Shown: in pieces, positions 15,178-24,754 of the stretch
How the letters are laid out: each line of letters begins with the position of its first letter
How positions within the stretch are numbered: the stretch's first letter is position 1
Source: Candidatus Thiodiazotropha sp. (ex Monitilora ramsayi)
GTDB lineage: Bacteria > Pseudomonadota > Gammaproteobacteria > Chromatiales > Chromatiaceae
Assembly: GCA_025655575.1 (NCBI GenBank)
Contig: JAHXIP010000003.1
Span: 124,001 to 188,000, forward strand
Direction of reading: 5' to 3'
Length of the DNA: 64,000 nt
Position numbers and translations under genes: made by a program
The notes under the pieces: model-generated
Told to the model about the DNA's origin: nothing
The model's database searches: none
The model's input: the letters and a program-made list of their open reading frames with translations, nothing else

Positions 15178-16023
15178 TCAATCCGACAGTGCTTTCGCGT
15201 GATAAGCCAGATGCTCACCAATAAACGTGGCAATGAAGTGATAACTGTGGTCATAACCTTCCTGCCGACGCAGCGTGAGCGGAAATCCCCGCGCTTCACA
15301 GGCCGTTTGCAGATCCTGCGGATAGAGCTCTTCAGCCAGAAACTCGTCATTGGTACCCTGATCGATCAGCAGCGGAATCTCAGCAGCACCTGCCTTGACC
15401 AAATCTGTGGCGTCATAGGCCTTCCAGGCTTCCCGATCGCTACCGAGATAGGCACTGAAGCAGCCCTCGCCCCAGCCACAGACCGAGGGATGGCAGATAG
15501 GTGAAAAAGCGGATACGGATCGATAAGCGCCTGTCTCTTTGAGTGCACAAACCAATGCACCATGTCCACCCATAGAGTGGCCCGTAATAGATTTCAGTCC
15601 GGGAACCAACGGCAACACCGCCTCAACCAACGCGGGTAGTTCCCGGGTCACATAATCATACATCTGGTAGTGTGCAGCCCAAGGTGCCTGGGTGGCATTG
15701 ACATAGAATCCGGCACCCTTGCCCAAGTCGTAACGCTCGGATTCGTCCGCCACCTCGTCACCACGGGGACTGGTGTCCGGCATGATCAGGGCGATACCCA
15801 GTTCTGCGGCATAACGCTGCGCACCAGCCTTGGTGCGTACATTGTCATCGGTACAGGTCAACCCGGAAAGCCAGTAGACCGCCGGGACCTTTTCCGTCTC
15901 TGCCTGCGGCGGCAGATAGACAGAAAATGTCATGGTGCAATGACAGACCGCTGAACTGTGCTCATAGCGGTTGAGCCAGCCACCGAACTCTTTGATACTT
16001 TCTATTTCTTTCATAGGTCTCAC
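15178..16023 (-). CDS. fghA: S-formylglutathione hydrolase
   Basis: YWLSGLTCTDDNVRTKAGAQRYAAELG, GHSMGGHGAL nucleophile elbow, DHSYHFIATFIGEHL. Confidence 0.95.
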   Translation of the reverse strand: MRPMKEIESIKEFGGWLNRYEHSSAVCHCTMTFSVYLPPQAETEKVPAVYWLSGLTCTDDNVRTKAGAQRYAAELGIALIMPDTSPRGDEVADESERYDLGKGAGFYVNATQAPWAAHYQMYDYVTRELPALVEAVLPLVPGLKSITGHSMGGHGALVCALKETGAYRSVSAFSPICHPSVCGWGEGCFSAYLGSDREAWKAYDATDLVKAGAAEIPLLIDQGTNDEFLAEELYPQDLQTACEARGFPLTLRRQEGYDHSYHFIATFIGEHLAYHAKALSD

Positions 16024-17133
16024 TCAGAAAATGATCACTGAGCGAATGCTCTCGCCGCTATGCATCAGATCGAAGGCCCGGTTAATATCCTCCAGCGGCA
16101 TGGTGTGGGTAACCATGGAATCGAGTTCGATTTCACCGTTCATATAACGGTCCACGTAACCCGGCAACTCGGTACGCCCTTTGACGCCACCAAAGGCAGT
16201 ACCTTTCCAGGTGCGGCCGGTCACCAGCTGGAATGGGCGGGTACTGATCTCCTGTCCCGCACCGGCAACGCCGATGATGGTGGAGACGCCCCAGCCCATG
16301 TGGCAGCATTCGAGCGCCTCACGCATGACGTGAATGTTGCCGATACACTCGAAGGAGTAGTCGACACCGCCGTTGGTCATCTCGGTAATCGCCTCAGTGA
16401 CGCTGCCGGGGAGAGCCTTGGGGTTAACAAAATCCGTGGCGCCTAACGCCTTGGCGATCTCCCACTTATCGGGATTGATATCCACAGCGATGATGCGTGA
16501 GGCCTTGGCCATCACAGCACCCTGAATGCATGACAAACCGATACCGCCCAAACCAAAAACCGCGACAGTGGAGCCGGGTTCTACTTTTGCCGTATTGAGT
16601 ACCGCACCGATACCGGTGGTGACACCACAGCCCAGCAGACAGACCTTATCCAGCGGCGCCGCCTTGTTCACCTTGGCCAAGGCAATCTCCGGCACGACGG
16701 TATATTCAGAGAAGGTGGAGCAACCCATGTAGTGGAAAATCGGCTTACCGTTCATAGAGAAGCGCCGGGTGCGATCCGGCATGTAACCGGTCCACACAGT
16801 GCCTGCAATAGATTGGCAAAGATTGGTCTTGGTCGACTGGCAATACTCGCACTCTCCACATTCAGGGATATAGAGTGGTATGACATGGTCGCCCGGCTTT
16901 AGATCTTTCACACCGGGACCGCATTCAACGACCTCACACCCCCCTTCATGCCCCAGTACACAGGGGAATGCTCCCTCCGGATCATCGCCGGAAAGGGTAA
17001 AGGCATCAGTGTGGCAGACACCGGATGCGATCACCTTCAGAAGGACTTCGCCCTCCTTGGGGCCTTCCACGTCAATAGTCTCTATGGAAAGGGGTTTCTT
17101 TGGCTCCCAGGCTACTGCGGCTTTTGCCTTCAT
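16024..17133 (-). CDS. adhC: S-(hydroxymethyl)glutathione dehydrogenase / class III alcohol dehydrogenase
   Basis: [24 protein letters not shown], zinc-binding [28 protein letters not shown]; directly upstream of fghA. Confidence 0.96.
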
Positions 17134-17726: not shown

Positions 17727-18275
17727 TTAGTTCCCATGCCTTGTTACCACTTTCTGTAATTCTCTCACCTGCTGTAACAGTGCACTGTCATCCCATTCTC
17801 GATCACCAATGACTTGGTAAACAGCCTCACCTCTCTGATTTATCACAAAAGTGGCAGGCAATCCTCTCACTCGCCAGCGTTGACTGATATTGCCATGACT
17901 GTCCTGAAGCACAGGAAAGTCGATAGGATAATCCTCGGTGAATGCTTCAACCGCCGCTTTGTCCTCACCCACGTTGATAGCCAGCATGGCAATACCCTCC
18001 TCTTTCAGCGCTGCCCAGGCACGATTCAATGACGGCAACTCTTCACGACAGGGACCACACCAGCTCGCCCAGAAATTGATGATGACCACCCTGCCTCTGT
18101 AATCGGAAAGATGGTGAAAAGTCCCATTCAGATCCCGCAGATGAAACGGCGGTACCGGTGCCGGCCTTGGGATGGGGGTCATCCTGTCACTGGCGCATGC
18201 CTGCCACGAGACTATCAACATGAGGACCAACAGCCCGACGATGACTGGGTATGGGTTATTTTTCTGCATCAACAT
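17727..18275 (-). CDS. TlpA/ResA-like membrane-anchored thioredoxin
   Basis: Signal/anchor then FWASWCGPCREELPSLNRAW and RGLPATFVINQRG. Start chosen at MLMQKNNPYP (18275), consistent with the promoter at 18360-18388. Confidence 0.85.
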   Translation of the reverse strand: MLMQKNNPYPVIVGLLVLMLIVSWQACASDRMTPIPRPAPVPPFHLRDLNGTFHHLSDYRGRVVIINFWASWCGPCREELPSLNRAWAALKEEGIAMLAINVGEDKAAVEAFTEDYPIDFPVLQDSHGNISQRWRVRGLPATFVINQRGEAVYQVIGDREWDDSALLQQVRELQKVVTRHGN

Positions 18276-18359
18276 AAAAAGATCAGCACTCTCACCGTAG
18301 TCACCACGCCTCACCCCATTGATTGAACGCCCCTCATGGCAAAACAATGTGTGTAATAA

Positions 18360-18388
18360 ACAATAGAATGAATGTTCATTTTTGTCAA
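18360..18388 (-). promoter_or_regulatory. Putative sigma70 promoter with TetR-type operator in the spacer, upstream of the tlpA-like gene
   Basis: Minus strand TTGACA-(17: AAAATGAACATTCATTC)-TATTGT. Confidence 0.7.
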
Positions 18389-18419
18389 TTGCCTGCGTTA
18401 TTTTTTCATGGTAACGCCC

Positions 18420-18691
18420 AATGGGGCCCTGTTTGAGGTAACAGCGGCATTTCTTCCGACTTTTTATCTCCAGTCCAATGTCAGGCGGCAGTCTCAACCA
18501 ACAACCCTGACCAGCGATGACGTCACCGACCAGCAACTCAACCGCTTTCGCTCAACACCCTGAGCAGGAGAAGCCGCCCACTCCATGCTTGTTGTATCGA
18601 CCTGCACCACCAGTGTCATATCGGCATGGAGATCCACTTCTTTGTCATCGTCTTGATACGCAGGACCGTTCTCTGGGTTGACACCTTTCAT
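18420..18691 (-). pseudogene. Frameshifted ChrR-like cupin remnant (tentative)
   Basis: MKGVNPENG...VDLHADMTLVVQVDTTSMEWAASPAQGVERKRL resembles the start of ChrR-type cupins, then frame breaks; LLVGDVIAGQGCWLRLPPDIGLEIK continues in another frame. Confidence 0.4.
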
Positions 18692-18700
18692 GAACAGTAA

Positions 18701-19267
18701 TCAGCCCCCGTTATCGAGCAGATCTTTAACCACGTTCAAAACATGCTCAGGTGGGAAACCATAAGGGACTACCGTTGTGAGTTGTCCGGTCCGGTCTATG
18801 ACATAAAGATTGGCGGAATGATCCAGCGTGTAGCGACCATCTGTTGACTCATGACGTTTGAATTTAACCTGATACTGTTGTGCCACCCTGGCAATCTCAG
18901 ATTGAGAGCCTGTCAGGCCCAGTAGGTTTTCATTGAAATAGCGTGTGTAGTTCAACAACACTTCTGGCGTGTCCCGTTCAGGATCCAATGAAATAAACAC
19001 ACCACGAACTTCCTCTTCCCGCTCATCCAGTGCATTCAGGACAGAAGCCAGATTCGACAGCTCAGTGGGACAGATATCGGGACAGTAGGTATAGCCAAAA
19101 AAGAGTAATACCACCTTGCCCCTTAGATGCTCCAGCTTAAAGTCTTCTCCTCGCTGATCGGTTAGCATGAAGTCTCCACCCAAATCTGCTGCCCGTGCAT
19201 AGCAGGCACCTACCCAAATAGAGAAGAGCAGCAGGGAAACTAACGTTGTAGTTTTTCGCCTCGCCAT
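18701..19267 (-). CDS. SCO1/SenC family protein
   Basis: FFGYTYCPDICPTELSNL CxxxC copper motif, LDPERDTPEVL, LDHSANLYVIDRTG. Confidence 0.9.
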   Translation of the reverse strand: MARRKTTTLVSLLLFSIWVGACYARAADLGGDFMLTDQRGEDFKLEHLRGKVVLLFFGYTYCPDICPTELSNLASVLNALDEREEEVRGVFISLDPERDTPEVLLNYTRYFNENLLGLTGSQSEIARVAQQYQVKFKRHESTDGRYTLDHSANLYVIDRTGQLTTVVPYGFPPEHVLNVVKDLLDNGG

Positions 19268-21232
19268 TCAGCGAACCTCTACCTCAGTACCATGTACCCA
19301 GCTTGGATCACCCTTGCCGATATCACCAATTGGAGCGGCAAAGGCATCCGCGACTAAGGCATCGACATTACTACCTGTTAGCGACATCAGGAAACTCACC
19401 AGATCCGCTTTCTCGATTTTGCTGAGATTCAGCGGTCTTACAAGCGGATCCTGTAACTCATTGGGCACCCCGCCAGCATCGTAAAAATCAACCACCTCAC
19501 TTAACGTACTCAAAGAGCCGTTGTGCATATAGGGAGCGGTTAACGCCACATTACGCAGACTTGGTGTTTTATACTTCCAGCGGTCATGGGGATTTTGCGT
19601 GACTTCGTACCGTCCCACATCATTCGGCGGCTTCTCTCCCACACGTTCAATAACAGAGCGATCCACATCGATAGTTATACCCGGTGCAATCTGAACCGTT
19701 TGCTTCTCAGGAAAAATACCCATCGATTCGAGATAACCGACACCGGTATTGTGTAACCGATTATCGGTAAACAGTGCCGACTTCTCCCCCAGCGTATGGC
19801 ATGAGGAACATCCGGCTTTACCGGTAAAAAGTTTAAAGCCCCGATGGGCGGCTTCGGAAATTGAATCGGTTTTGCCACTGAAATACCATCGATCGAAAGC
19901 CGAATCTGCAGAGACCAATGTCCGTTGATAGCTGGCGAGGGCCATGCCCAGTGTTTCCATACTGACACTTCTACCGTCGAAGGCAGCTTCGAACATCCCT
20001 TGATAATCACCGATCTGACGAATCTTGCTCAAGACATATCCAACAGACGGGTTGGCCATCTCATTTCTTGCCAGGAGCGGTCCCCAAACTTGCTGCTCGA
20101 GATTCTCCTCACGCCCATCATGAAACAGCAACTGCGCATAGGCTGTGTTGTAGATAGTCGGTGAGTTACGTCTCACACTGCGCCCCTCGATACCGACAGC
20201 CATGGCGAGTTCGTTACTGGTAAATCCCTGTTCCGGCACATGGCACATGGCACATGAAAAGGTATCGTTAAGGGAGAGCCTGCGATCGAAAAACAACTTT
20301 CTGCCAAGCTCGATTTTCTCCCTGCTCAACGGATTATTTTCCGGTACAGGTATCGAAGGTAATCCCAATGGCGGATTCATTGCATTAGAGATCAGGTCTG
20401 CCGCTTTCCCCTGCCTTAACTCCAGCGCCAGCGAGTTTGTTTTGTATGTCGACTGCTCATAGCCCCGCTTATCGTCACCAGGCACAGATAGTTTCGATGC
20501 CTGGTGGGTATTCGCTGCGGTTTTGATATTCGTTACTTGATCTTCACTCTGTTTCAGCAATGTCTTTACATCGTTGATGATGAGATCGTGATGAAGAAAA
20601 TCGACACTGTAAATATTGCGTATCTGCTTTTTAGGATCAATCAGAAAAACTCTCAATACATGGCTATAGCCAACCAGCGGATTACCTTCGCTATCCACCT
20701 CACGCTGAACATCCTGATTGTAGGCTGCGAGAATCGGATTTAAGTCTGTTTGTGACGCCGTTGTGACAAATCGCCAATCTCCCGCATTGCCTGCGTAGCG
20801 AAAATTATTGCTATACAGCGTCATCACCTCAGGCGTATCGATCTCAGGATCGAAGCTCAGACTGATCAGCTTTAAGTTACCCGCCAGTGCCTGATCCTGC
20901 TTCATCGCAGATTTGATTTTATAAAACACATGGGAGGTCAACGGACAGCCGTTCACATCGCTACAGGTACTGTAGATAAATGCCAGCAGTACATAGTCGC
21001 TGCCGAAGAGATTAAAGAGATGCTGCTTTCTTCCCTGTGTATCCAGCACCATACCGTCCGTCGCCTGCCCCAGTGACGGCAGGTTGTAGCTACCGATGTC
21101 GGGTAACTCATAGCCCAGCTCACCATATCCCGGAGCCGAGTCAACGATTAGGCTGGGCGTATCGGCTGATACGACCGGGACCAGCACAGTGGAAAGAAAA
21201 AGGCACCGAACCAGCAAGTCACGCATAAGCAC
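19268..21232 (-). CDS. Fusion of SCO1-like domain and MauG/di-heme cytochrome c peroxidase-like domain
   Basis: N-terminal SCO-like region (FIYSTCSDVNGCPLTSHVFYKI, LSFDPEIDTPEVM, GYSHVLRVFLID), then two heme motifs CAMCH and CSSCH with MauG/CcpA features (GRKLFFDRRLSLNDTFSCAMCH; TPSLRNVALTAPYMHNGSLSTL). Confidence 0.9.
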   Translation of the reverse strand: MLMRDLLVRCLFLSTVLVPVVSADTPSLIVDSAPGYGELGYELPDIGSYNLPSLGQATDGMVLDTQGRKQHLFNLFGSDYVLLAFIYSTCSDVNGCPLTSHVFYKIKSAMKQDQALAGNLKLISLSFDPEIDTPEVMTLYSNNFRYAGNAGDWRFVTTASQTDLNPILAAYNQDVQREVDSEGNPLVGYSHVLRVFLIDPKKQIRNIYSVDFLHHDLIINDVKTLLKQSEDQVTNIKTAANTHQASKLSVPGDDKRGYEQSTYKTNSLALELRQGKAADLISNAMNPPLGLPSIPVPENNPLSREKIELGRKLFFDRRLSLNDTFSCAMCHVPEQGFTSNELAMAVGIEGRSVRRNSPTIYNTAYAQLLFHDGREENLEQQVWGPLLARNEMANPSVGYVLSKIRQIGDYQGMFEAAFDGRSVSMETLGMALASYQRTLVSADSAFDRWYFSGKTDSISEAAHRGFKLFTGKAGCSSCHTLGEKSALFTDNRLHNTGVGYLESMGIFPEKQTVQIAPGITIDVDRSVIERVGEKPPNDVGRYEVTQNPHDRWKYKTPSLRNVALTAPYMHNGSLSTLSEVVDFYDAGGVPNELQDPLVRPLNLSKIEKADLVSFLMSLTGSNVDALVADAFAAPIGDIGKGDPSWVHGTEVEVR

Positions 21233-21245
21233 TCCGGGTCCATCG

Positions 21246-21271
21246 ACCCCGGTGTAAGGCTATACCGGGGT
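21246..21271 (-). other. Intergenic hairpin 1 (ACCCCGGT/ACCGGGGT)
   Basis: 8-bp perfect stem between mtoX and the SCO1-MauG gene, no poly-U. Confidence 0.6.
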
Positions 21272-21272
21272 T

Positions 21273-21307
21273 GCAACTCCGGACGTCATGTTGATATCCG
21301 GAGTTGC
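21273..21307 (-). other. Intergenic hairpin 2 (GCAACTCCGGA/TCCGGAGTTGC)
   Basis: 11-bp perfect stem immediately downstream of the mtoX stop codon, no poly-U. Confidence 0.65.
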
Positions 21308-21313
21308 AGTTTG

Positions 21314-22702
21314 TTACTTGTTGATAGGTTCCAGATTAGCCACTGAGACTGCACTGCTCTCGGGCCTGACCGCACCATAGAGTGAATAGGCGCCAAAGCG
21401 CATCTGGTGAGCCCGACCGAGTTTCTCCTTGTTGAAGTCGATCGCGAACTGCTCAACCAGCTTCTCTCCATCCCAAACGAAGCTCTTTAGGTACTGATCG
21501 TTGTCTTCACCTTTCTTGTCCCAGTTGGCCAGCAACGAGGAGGTATAGTAGATACGCGTGCTGTCCCAACTTGAAGAGGCCATATTGACTTGGCGTCCGA
21601 TGACCTTTTCATAAACCTGTTTGGGGTTGTGAGGATCGGTCATGTCGAACAGACGGGTCTTACCATCCATAAAAGTGTTGACCCAAAGGCGACTATCATC
21701 AGAGCTGATGGAGATATCCACAGGCAGCGGCACTTTGGAAGGATCGCCAATATCCGCCACTGCCTTGGCTTGCCACACGCCATTCTCATCTTCGTAGATC
21801 AGATGCAGTTTGGATGTCAGCGCAGTGGAGGTAATACACCAGTTGTTATTCGGCTGCCAGGCACAACGGATTTCCAAAGGCGCGCCGGGGACATCGAAAA
21901 CCTTCTTCGGTTTCTTACTGTGCAGATCCCACAACACCACTGTATTACCAAAACGCTTCATCGCCTCCTTGTCCTGCAACATCTTGCCAAAGTCCATCAT
22001 GTAGTTGGACCAGCCGGTGAAGGATGATGTCAGCATCACATTTCTGCGTGGTAACACGCGCACGTCATAGTTGTAACCATCCGCATACTTACCGGATTTT
22101 TCGGCGCCCTGCAGATTCTGGTCGGTCGGCATCCAGTGAGTTGCCACATATTCACCCTCGTTGGTGTATTCCACCAACGCTGTGCGTCCCCCATGGTCCT
22201 TATTGTTGGAGAGACCGGTAATCATGATTCTTCCCGGCAGTGCATAGGTTGTGTGAGGCCCCACCACGCCACCGCTCTTCTCGACGAAGTCTGTGACGAC
22301 CTTATGCAGCGTCGGTTTTGCCGGATTGGTAGAGACATCAAAGATGAAGAGCTTGTTGGTATCGAGCCCACCTGCCCACAGGTACTTCCTGTCATCGGTA
22401 AATCCTGAGTGGTGCGCCTCATTACGCCCCCCTACCGACAGAGAATCTACAACTTTGCCGTAGTGGCTCGATTTCGGGTTAACGTCGACGGTCACCAATT
22501 TATCCTGTCCGTCACCCAGTCCCTCGACACCGAGGGTCCAGACATAGACAAAATCCTCCTGTCCGGTGATTTTCGCCATATACGGCGACTGGCATGTCTC
22601 ATCGGCCTGAGCGGGTAGTACTGCACCAAACAGGGTCAGGGTGAAAGCGATGGCAGATGCCATAACAGCAGGTTTTGCGGGCTTGTATTTGAATAGCCTC
22701 AT
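21314..22702 (-). CDS. mtoX: Selenium-binding protein 56 family / methanethiol oxidase
   Basis: Signal peptide followed by SBP56-like sequence (DVNPKSSHYGKVVDSLSVGGRNEAHHSGFTDDRKYLWAGGLDTNKLFIFDV, GPHTTYALPGRIMITGLSN) and SCO1/MauG neighbours. Confidence 0.88.
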   Translation of the reverse strand: MRLFKYKPAKPAVMASAIAFTLTLFGAVLPAQADETCQSPYMAKITGQEDFVYVWTLGVEGLGDGQDKLVTVDVNPKSSHYGKVVDSLSVGGRNEAHHSGFTDDRKYLWAGGLDTNKLFIFDVSTNPAKPTLHKVVTDFVEKSGGVVGPHTTYALPGRIMITGLSNNKDHGGRTALVEYTNEGEYVATHWMPTDQNLQGAEKSGKYADGYNYDVRVLPRRNVMLTSSFTGWSNYMMDFGKMLQDKEAMKRFGNTVVLWDLHSKKPKKVFDVPGAPLEIRCAWQPNNNWCITSTALTSKLHLIYEDENGVWQAKAVADIGDPSKVPLPVDISISSDDSRLWVNTFMDGKTRLFDMTDPHNPKQVYEKVIGRQVNMASSSWDSTRIYYTSSLLANWDKKGEDNDQYLKSFVWDGEKLVEQFAIDFNKEKLGRAHQMRFGAYSLYGAVRPESSAVSVANLEPINK

Positions 22703-22831: not shown

Positions 22832-23464
22832 ATGCCGTATCTGAAGAAGAGCACGCCGGTAAAGGAACCCGTCGATTGCCGCATCCTGACTGCGGCCCTC
22901 GACCTATTCGTGGAGAGGGGGTTTCACAATGTGTCGGTACATGACGTACAAAAATCTGCCAATGTGAGCATTGGCTCTATTTACAACCACTTCGGCGGTA
23001 AGGAGGGCATCGCAAAGGCACTCTATTACCATCTGATGAAAGAGTTTGAGGAGATGATCGATGAGGTCATTTCTGAAGATCTGACCAGCCGGGAACGCTG
23101 CAATAAAATCATCGCACTGCTGTTCGAATACACGGAGACAAGGCGAAATATTATCTCCTACATGCTGCACGCAAAACATCGGGAGTTCCTGCCTGACGAA
23201 CCGCCGATCTGCAGTTCATCCCCCTTCAAAGCCATGCGAAATATCGTACAACAGGGGATAAACGATGGCGAAATACGCCAGGGAGAACCCTGGATCGCGG
23301 CTGCCACTGTGTTTGGTGGGGCTATCCGTATGATCCATCTACGCCTCGACGGCGTCATCAAGGAACCCCTGACAAATTACTACGATGAGTTGATCGAACG
23401 TATGTGGCAAGGCATGGATCCCGAGGACCTGCCTGAGATTTCCGCACAAAGATCAGTAGTCTAA
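22832..23464 (+). CDS. TetR/AcrR family transcriptional regulator
   Basis: N-terminal HTH: ILTAALDLFVERGFHNVSVHDVQKSANVSIGSIYNHFGGKEGIAKALY; divergent from mtoX. Confidence 0.93.
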   Translation: MPYLKKSTPVKEPVDCRILTAALDLFVERGFHNVSVHDVQKSANVSIGSIYNHFGGKEGIAKALYYHLMKEFEEMIDEVISEDLTSRERCNKIIALLFEYTETRRNIISYMLHAKHREFLPDEPPICSSSPFKAMRNIVQQGINDGEIRQGEPWIAAATVFGGAIRMIHLRLDGVIKEPLTNYYDELIERMWQGMDPEDLPEISAQRSVV

Positions 23465-24274: not shown

Positions 24275-24754
24275 ATGATTAAGAACATGACTCTGATACT
24301 TGTTAGCGTGTCCCTCCTCATCTCGACCACCGTGTCGGCAACAGACCTTATCGATTACCCAGACGGCTACAGGCTCTGGGGACATGTAAAGTCGATGACT
24401 ATCCATAAAGGCCATCCCCTGGAAAACCCATTTCTCGGTATCCATCATGTCTATGCCAATCAGCGCGCTTTAGCGGGCTTGAAAAAAGGCAGTTATGAAG
24501 ACGGATCCATTTTTGTCTTTGATCTGCTACAGAACAAGACGTCCGACAAAACCTCTGTGGAGGGTGAGCGCGCCCTGATCGGTGTGATGGTCAAAGATAG
24601 CCATCGTTTTACAAAAACGGATGGTTGGGGTTATGAAGGTTGGGCAGGAAACAGCCGCAACAAACGCTTAGTGAATGATGGCGGACTCTCTTGTCACGGT
24701 TGTCATACTCAACAAATGCAGCATGACTATATATTCAGCCAATGGCGGGATTGA
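24275..24754 (+). CDS. Cytochrome P460-family periplasmic c-type heme protein
   Basis: Signal peptide, P460-like core (HHVYANQRALAGLKKGSYEDGSIFVFDLL), C-terminal heme motif CHGCH. Confidence 0.75.
   Translation: MIKNMTLILVSVSLLISTTVSATDLIDYPDGYRLWGHVKSMTIHKGHPLENPFLGIHHVYANQRALAGLKKGSYEDGSIFVFDLLQNKTSDKTSVEGERALIGVMVKDSHRFTKTDGWGYEGWAGNSRNKRLVNDGGLSCHGCHTQQMQHDYIFSQWRD

Follow-up and report, generated by a model that had tools for sequence, protein, structure and literature searches.

A SCO-like/MauG-type di-heme fusion beside mtoX in Candidatus Thiodiazotropha and its proposed role in methanethiol oxidase maturation

In a stretch of 64,000 nucleotides from Candidatus Thiodiazotropha sp. (ex Monitilora ramsayi), hereafter the window, a single gene directly downstream of mtoX joins a SCO-like domain to a MauG-type di-heme domain, and its predicted product is probably exported through Sec to the periplasm, where as a dedicated accessory of MtoX it would combine copper handling with H2O2-driven protein oxidation. 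The fusion as such, and the SCO/TlpA-like gene that follows it, are already published and are not a discovery of ours, contrary to the novelty implied by an earlier note on this DNA. SCO1-MauG fusions adjoining mtoX were reported by Eyice 2017 (PMC5739008) and by a 2019 study of Methylophaga thiooxydans (PMC6548844), the latter describing the fusion with a SCO/TlpA-like gene after it, signal peptides, and induction of the fusion on DMS, and proposing that the fusion processes MTO. Our only additions are at the level of residues and, as far as we found, are absent from both papers: the invariance of a Cx5C copper-site motif, the MauG-type axial Tyr, a His in place of MauG Trp93, and the loss of distal heme-site residues in certain genomes.

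The fusion gene and its genomic setting

The fusion gene (19268..21232, reverse strand; 654 aa) occupies one continuous frame from 21232 to 19268 with zero internal stops. The earlier note had read it as a single polypeptide holding SCO1-like and di-heme domains, and the Pfam matches bear this out: SCO1-SenC (PF02630) aligns to residues 76-203 (E 1.9e-11, 44.5 bits, against a gathering cut-off of 22.8) and CCP_MauG to residues 305-452 (E 4.1e-50, 170.7 bits). Since about 40 assemblies of relatives have the same frame open across the fusion, a frameshift, missed stop, or sequencing error behind the fusion is ruled out. Judged by the fusion protein, at 98% identity, the closest relative is the Sedimenticolaceae clam symbiont Candidatus Thiodiazotropha sp. 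(ex Myrtea). The likelier start codon appears to be the ATG at 21226 rather than the GTG at 21232, since the GTG overlaps a Shine-Dalgarno-like GGAG site (21235-21232) that lies ahead of the ATG. Read from this ATG, the protein begins MRDLLVRCLFLSTVLVPVVSADT, judged by eye to be a putative Sec-type signal.

Immediately upstream lies mtoX (21314..22702, reverse strand), encoding a periplasmic methanethiol oxidase (MTO) that scores 788 bits against the NCBIfam model NF052453 (cut-off 650), so that the link to MTO drawn in the earlier note holds; the MtoX copper ligands His 97, 98, 150, and 432 are conserved. The fusion is followed, as the note had also observed, by a separate canonical SCO1 with the motif CPDIC (18701..19267, reverse strand; PF02630, E 2e-47), whose first base is the base after the fusion stop codon. 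This protein has the SCO fold and Cys/Cys/His set in common with the fusion but carries CxxxC where the fusion has Cx5C. Farther along the same strand are genes for a TlpA/ResA-like thiol-disulfide oxidoreductase (17727..18536, start uncertain), for a class III alcohol dehydrogenase/S-(hydroxymethyl)glutathione dehydrogenase (16024..17133, assigned by sequence) whose Ruegeria ortholog comes after mtoX-SCO-di-heme, and for a putative S-formylglutathione hydrolase (15178..16023), called from sequence and synteny; a DsrE-like protein is also encoded farther downstream. Formaldehyde and sulfide are the products of MTO, and the dehydrogenase, hydrolase, and DsrE-like genes fit the handling of both. 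The published Methylophaga thiooxydans clusters (PMC5739008, PMC6548844), compared here by their description rather than by protein alignment, likewise have SCO1 and MauG-type parts in one gene after mtoX and a separate SCO/TlpA-like gene after the fusion; they continue to persulfide dioxygenase, SqrB, and SulP, whereas the row in the window leads to glutathione-dependent formaldehyde oxidation genes.

The gap between mtoX and the fusion holds two tandem stem-loops (21247..21308, reverse strand; RNA fold z = -5.0), and strong stems of unrelated sequence occur at the equal position in many relatives. These structures would perhaps keep mtoX transcript abundant and hold the accessory gene down. 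In Thiodiazotropha and near relatives, mtoX retains a divergent TetR-family regulator gene as a neighbor (22832..23464, forward strand). Past the regulators upstream of mtoX is a gene for a cytochrome P460-family protein (24275-24754, forward strand) with a CHGCH heme motif near its C-terminus, which two close relatives (L011, L012/L045) also have in the vicinity of mtoX.

The Cx5C SCO-like domain and the MauG-type di-heme domain

The SCO-like thioredoxin-fold domain covers about residues 58-235 (20528..21061, reverse strand, as are all sites below), as placed by PF02630, the structural model, and Foldseek. Its copper-site motif CSDVNGC (residues 90-96; 20945..20965) is a Cx5C, as the earlier note had it, and makes the metal loop two residues longer than CxxxC; His191 (20660..20662) is, by conservation, the third copper ligand of SCO proteins. 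The domain lacks the CxxxC of SCO1/SenC (PF02630) while retaining the histidine and passing the profile cut-off, and we call it a SCO-like variant because Cx5C replaces CxxxC. The motif is present in 59/59 mtoX-linked SCO domains long enough to judge, both fused and split, in a set of rows taken by the motif itself, with the motif-less rows also shown (a piece truncated by its contig and an unrelated protein with CxxxC). This invariance, with the consensus CxDxxGCP against CxxxC in the adjoining canonical SCO proteins, rules out a chance variant. His191 is kept in all 58 mtoX-linked rows reaching that position and in 34/35 canonical SCO proteins. Across 399 genomes sampled phylum-wide, strong matches to this SCO domain (E < 1e-30) occur only in the five that bear mtoX and all have Cx5C; in the other genomes, the weaker matches (E 1e-8 to 1e-12) have CxxxC. 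Our literature search for Cx5C SCO proteins gave no paper, which does not prove their absence.

The SCO fold that the earlier note had assumed for the N-terminal half is predicted by an AlphaFold model of the fusion built from 16 sequences. This half is well modeled (pLDDT mostly 70-90) and its best Foldseek matches are SCO structures, with ranks 2-20 almost all SCO proteins, copper-bound ones included, at E values down to 1e-9. The di-heme half of the model is poor (pLDDT mostly < 50), and we interpret neither this half nor the domain arrangement.

The MauG-type di-heme domain covers about residues 296-624 (19361..20347), as placed by CCP_MauG and by PDB matches, of which 6e1c is the best (E 1e-47) and MauG (3l4m) reaches E 7e-23. 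When aligned to Paracoccus denitrificans MauG (taken from NC_008688), the two heme motifs named in the earlier note fall on the MauG heme sites: CAMCH (residues 327-331; 20240..20254) on His35, the site of the five-coordinate peroxidatic heme, and CSSCH (residues 475-479; 19796..19810) on His205, that of the six-coordinate heme. Tyr584 (19481..19483) is the equivalent of the axial ligand Tyr294 and is Tyr in 62/62 aligned proteins, which disfavors a classical di-heme cytochrome c peroxidase with a Met-His heme. The distal Gln103/Pro107/Glu113 correspond to Q381/P385/E391. At the position of the inter-heme Trp93, the alignment places His371 (20120..20122), and a His stands there in 40/43 fused and 15/19 single di-heme proteins. 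By this alignment, the di-heme half is MauG-like in its ligand set.

Likeness in ligands does not extend to membership in a named family. The model for TTQ-forming MauG (TIGR03791, TTQ_mauG) scores 195.5 bits against a cut-off of 443.85, and the MbnH model (TIGR04039), the top-scoring named family, scores 254.4 against 362.85; with both curated cut-offs missed, we assign the domain to neither MauG nor MbnH proper. MauG, which serves TTQ biosynthesis in methylamine dehydrogenase, shares two CxxCH motifs, the axial Tyr, and the distal Gln/Pro/Glu with the fusion and differs in having Trp93, in lacking a SCO domain, and in belonging to a mau rather than a mto operon. The MbnH-type enzyme (6e1c) also has the axial Tyr, with an alignment that is unsure around the Trp93 position, and a scan of ten window proteins turned up no MbnP-type substrate. 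BthA of Burkholderia (PMC6405878) has a MauG-like Tyr-His heme and a replaced inter-heme Trp as well, but the replacement is Ser and not His, and its partner is a phosphatase gene. This Trp-less enzyme still forms the bis-Fe(IV) state, which is accompanied by Tyr and not Met (PMC6405878).

Fused and split partners of mtoX

Among 369 gammaproteobacterial genomes, 33 carry mtoX. The two partners are fused in 23 of these neighborhoods, a count that takes in one genome with a broken frame (G457), and separate in eight, including one with the genes on the opposite strand (G587); one has the di-heme gene only (G777), and one runs into a contig end. The fusion, whole or in contig-broken pieces, is present in all 23 near relatives with mtoX. 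SCO and di-heme genes are separate, too, in Ruegeria and in the four genomes with mtoX from the phylum at large (G298, G167, G227, G239). In Ruegeria pomeroyi DSS-3, the split SCO (SPO_RS21185) and cytochrome c peroxidase (SPO_RS21190) come after mtoX and resemble the fusion in their Cx5C (CGDVNGC), axial Tyr, His for Trp93, and the formaldehyde gene downstream of them, and differ in being two genes with a 4-base overlap, at about 47% identity to the fusion. The SCO and di-heme pair goes with mtoX whether fused or split. On a quick tree with open forks, mtoX needs at least five changes between the two states, for which we claim no direction.

The joint itself may be traced. Past their signal peptides, the split gammaproteobacterial di-heme proteins start with GPGDxKxGYExxxYxTxSxxLxxRxGxxADL, and the same GPGDxKxGY segment is the linker of the fusion, from about residue 249: SVPGDDKRGYEQSTYKTNSLALELRQGKAADL. 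The joint is therefore the mature N-terminus of the di-heme protein, with only the second signal peptide dropped.

Three Thiodiazotropha genomes (G004, G019, G020) have an extra mtoX without an adjoining fusion, and each has a fusion elsewhere, which is consistent with action in trans. Three second mtoX copies (L034, L035, L049) have neither a SCO-Cx5C nor a di-heme gene alongside; a sigma-54-type regulator gene lies on the opposite strand, with an outer-membrane-transporter-like gene beyond. A divergent mtoX-like ORF (5999-7546 of L121, genome G730) scores under the family cut-off, is partnerless, and has Gln as its His98 equivalent. The mtoX locus of G777 (L108) has di-heme and TlpA-like genes and no recognizable SCO domain of the Cx5C type; its di-heme protein has a longer N-terminus.

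In four genomes (loci L037, L114, L118, and L099 of G036, G666, G749, and G483), a second di-heme gene lies directly 3' of the fusion gene. The fused copies of the first three lack the Gln103 and Pro107 equivalents, and in two the Glu113 equivalent is gone too; both hemes and the axial Tyr are kept, and the adjoining single di-heme copy retains the distal residues. Distal loss thus affects 3/4 fused copies with a tandem gene vs 0/38 others (Fisher p 3e-4, uncorrected for relatedness, two of the three genomes being sisters on the tree). Because the loss is confined to genomes with the tandem gene, selection normally acts on the distal peroxide site: it matters when it is the sole copy, a result that fits maturation and peroxide removal alike.

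A proposed role in MtoX maturation

We favor a role in maturation. The SCO domain would act on MtoX fresh from export, passing copper to the four-histidine site or keeping that site reduced, by a route from Cys90/Cys96/His191 to MtoX His97/98/150/432. Reaction with H2O2, which MtoX itself may produce, would bring the di-heme domain to a high-valent state that would oxidize an MtoX residue, probably tryptophan. The fusion would offer one scaffold for both steps, and its loading or reduction probably falls to the SCO1 and TlpA-like proteins encoded separately downstream. This role is supported by the restriction of Cx5C SCO domains to mtoX genomes (5 of 399), by the pair's association with mtoX in either form, by the conservation of the Cu-site residues, axial Tyr, and distal Gln/Pro/Glu, by the match between the split di-heme N-terminus and the fusion linker, and by selection on the distal site; MTO is moreover Cu-dependent and predicted to be periplasmic (PMC5739008), and the fusion is DMS-induced (PMC6548844). 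The coupled copper delivery and redox maturation suggested in the earlier note is the best-supported reading and also a published proposal, which we hold as probable rather than demonstrated. The fusion-less extra mtoX copies and the G777 locus, where no Cx5C SCO domain was recognized, argue against it. Furthermore, R. pomeroyi MTO produced in E. coli without partner proteins degrades methanethiol, and human SELENBP1 from the same host shows activity with copper (PMC10362175), so the partners may not be essential and may instead raise efficiency or copper loading. We found in the literature no biochemistry on any member of the mtoX-linked fused or split group, and a tryptophylquinone in MTO is so far a proposal.

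Alternatively, the di-heme domain may be a peroxidase that clears the H2O2 made by MtoX, with the SCO domain as its thiol or electron partner. H2O2 release has been described for the M. thiooxydans MTO (PMC6548844) and for SELENBP1 (PMC10362175), the distal Gln/Pro/Glu are conserved, and BthA, also a Tyr-His enzyme, reduces H2O2 with an artificial donor (PMC6405878). We nevertheless consider this function, which the earlier note had offered as a second option, unlikely: the ligand of the six-coordinate heme aligns with MauG Tyr294, where classical di-heme peroxidases would have a Met, M. thiooxydans responds to DMS by inducing catalase and peroxiredoxin (PMC6548844), the R. pomeroyi MTO, with the split pair adjoining, is reported to make no H2O2, and the genome of the window has further di-heme peroxidase-like genes. 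The three genomes whose fused di-heme domain has lost its distal peroxidatic residues, yet not its hemes or axial Tyr, would fit a heme-linked thiol switch, in which copper/disulfide handling is the main role and the di-heme domain serves the SCO cysteines only as an electron donor or acceptor; we give this little credence, since these same genomes have an adjoining di-heme gene with intact distal residues and the remaining fused rows retain the distal site. It is very improbable that the di-heme domain acts within the fusion, as in MbnH/MbnP, by oxidizing a Trp of its own SCO domain (e.g. Trp153, present in 58/59 mtoX-linked SCO domains) to make a special copper site, an idea to which the best-scoring family and best PDB match lend themselves, because the aligned B. 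subtilis Sco also has Trp there, the usual Cys, Cys, and His ligands are intact and leave no need for a new one, and the linkage is to mtoX, not just of domain to domain.

Returning to maturation, it is possible, if doubtful, that the mtoX-linked proteins form a distinct MauG-type class, with His for the inter-heme Trp, that together with the Cx5C chaperone would install copper and oxidize an MtoX tryptophan in one coupled step; bacterial MtoX, unlike human SELENBP1, would then have a protein-derived cofactor. Methanethiol oxidation is among the key steps of the marine sulfur cycle, and the presence of the fusion in most mtoX-bearing gammaproteobacteria sampled offers a single gene and protein for probing MtoX maturation. 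The Cx5C site and the His-for-Trp change make the maturation hypothesis testable.
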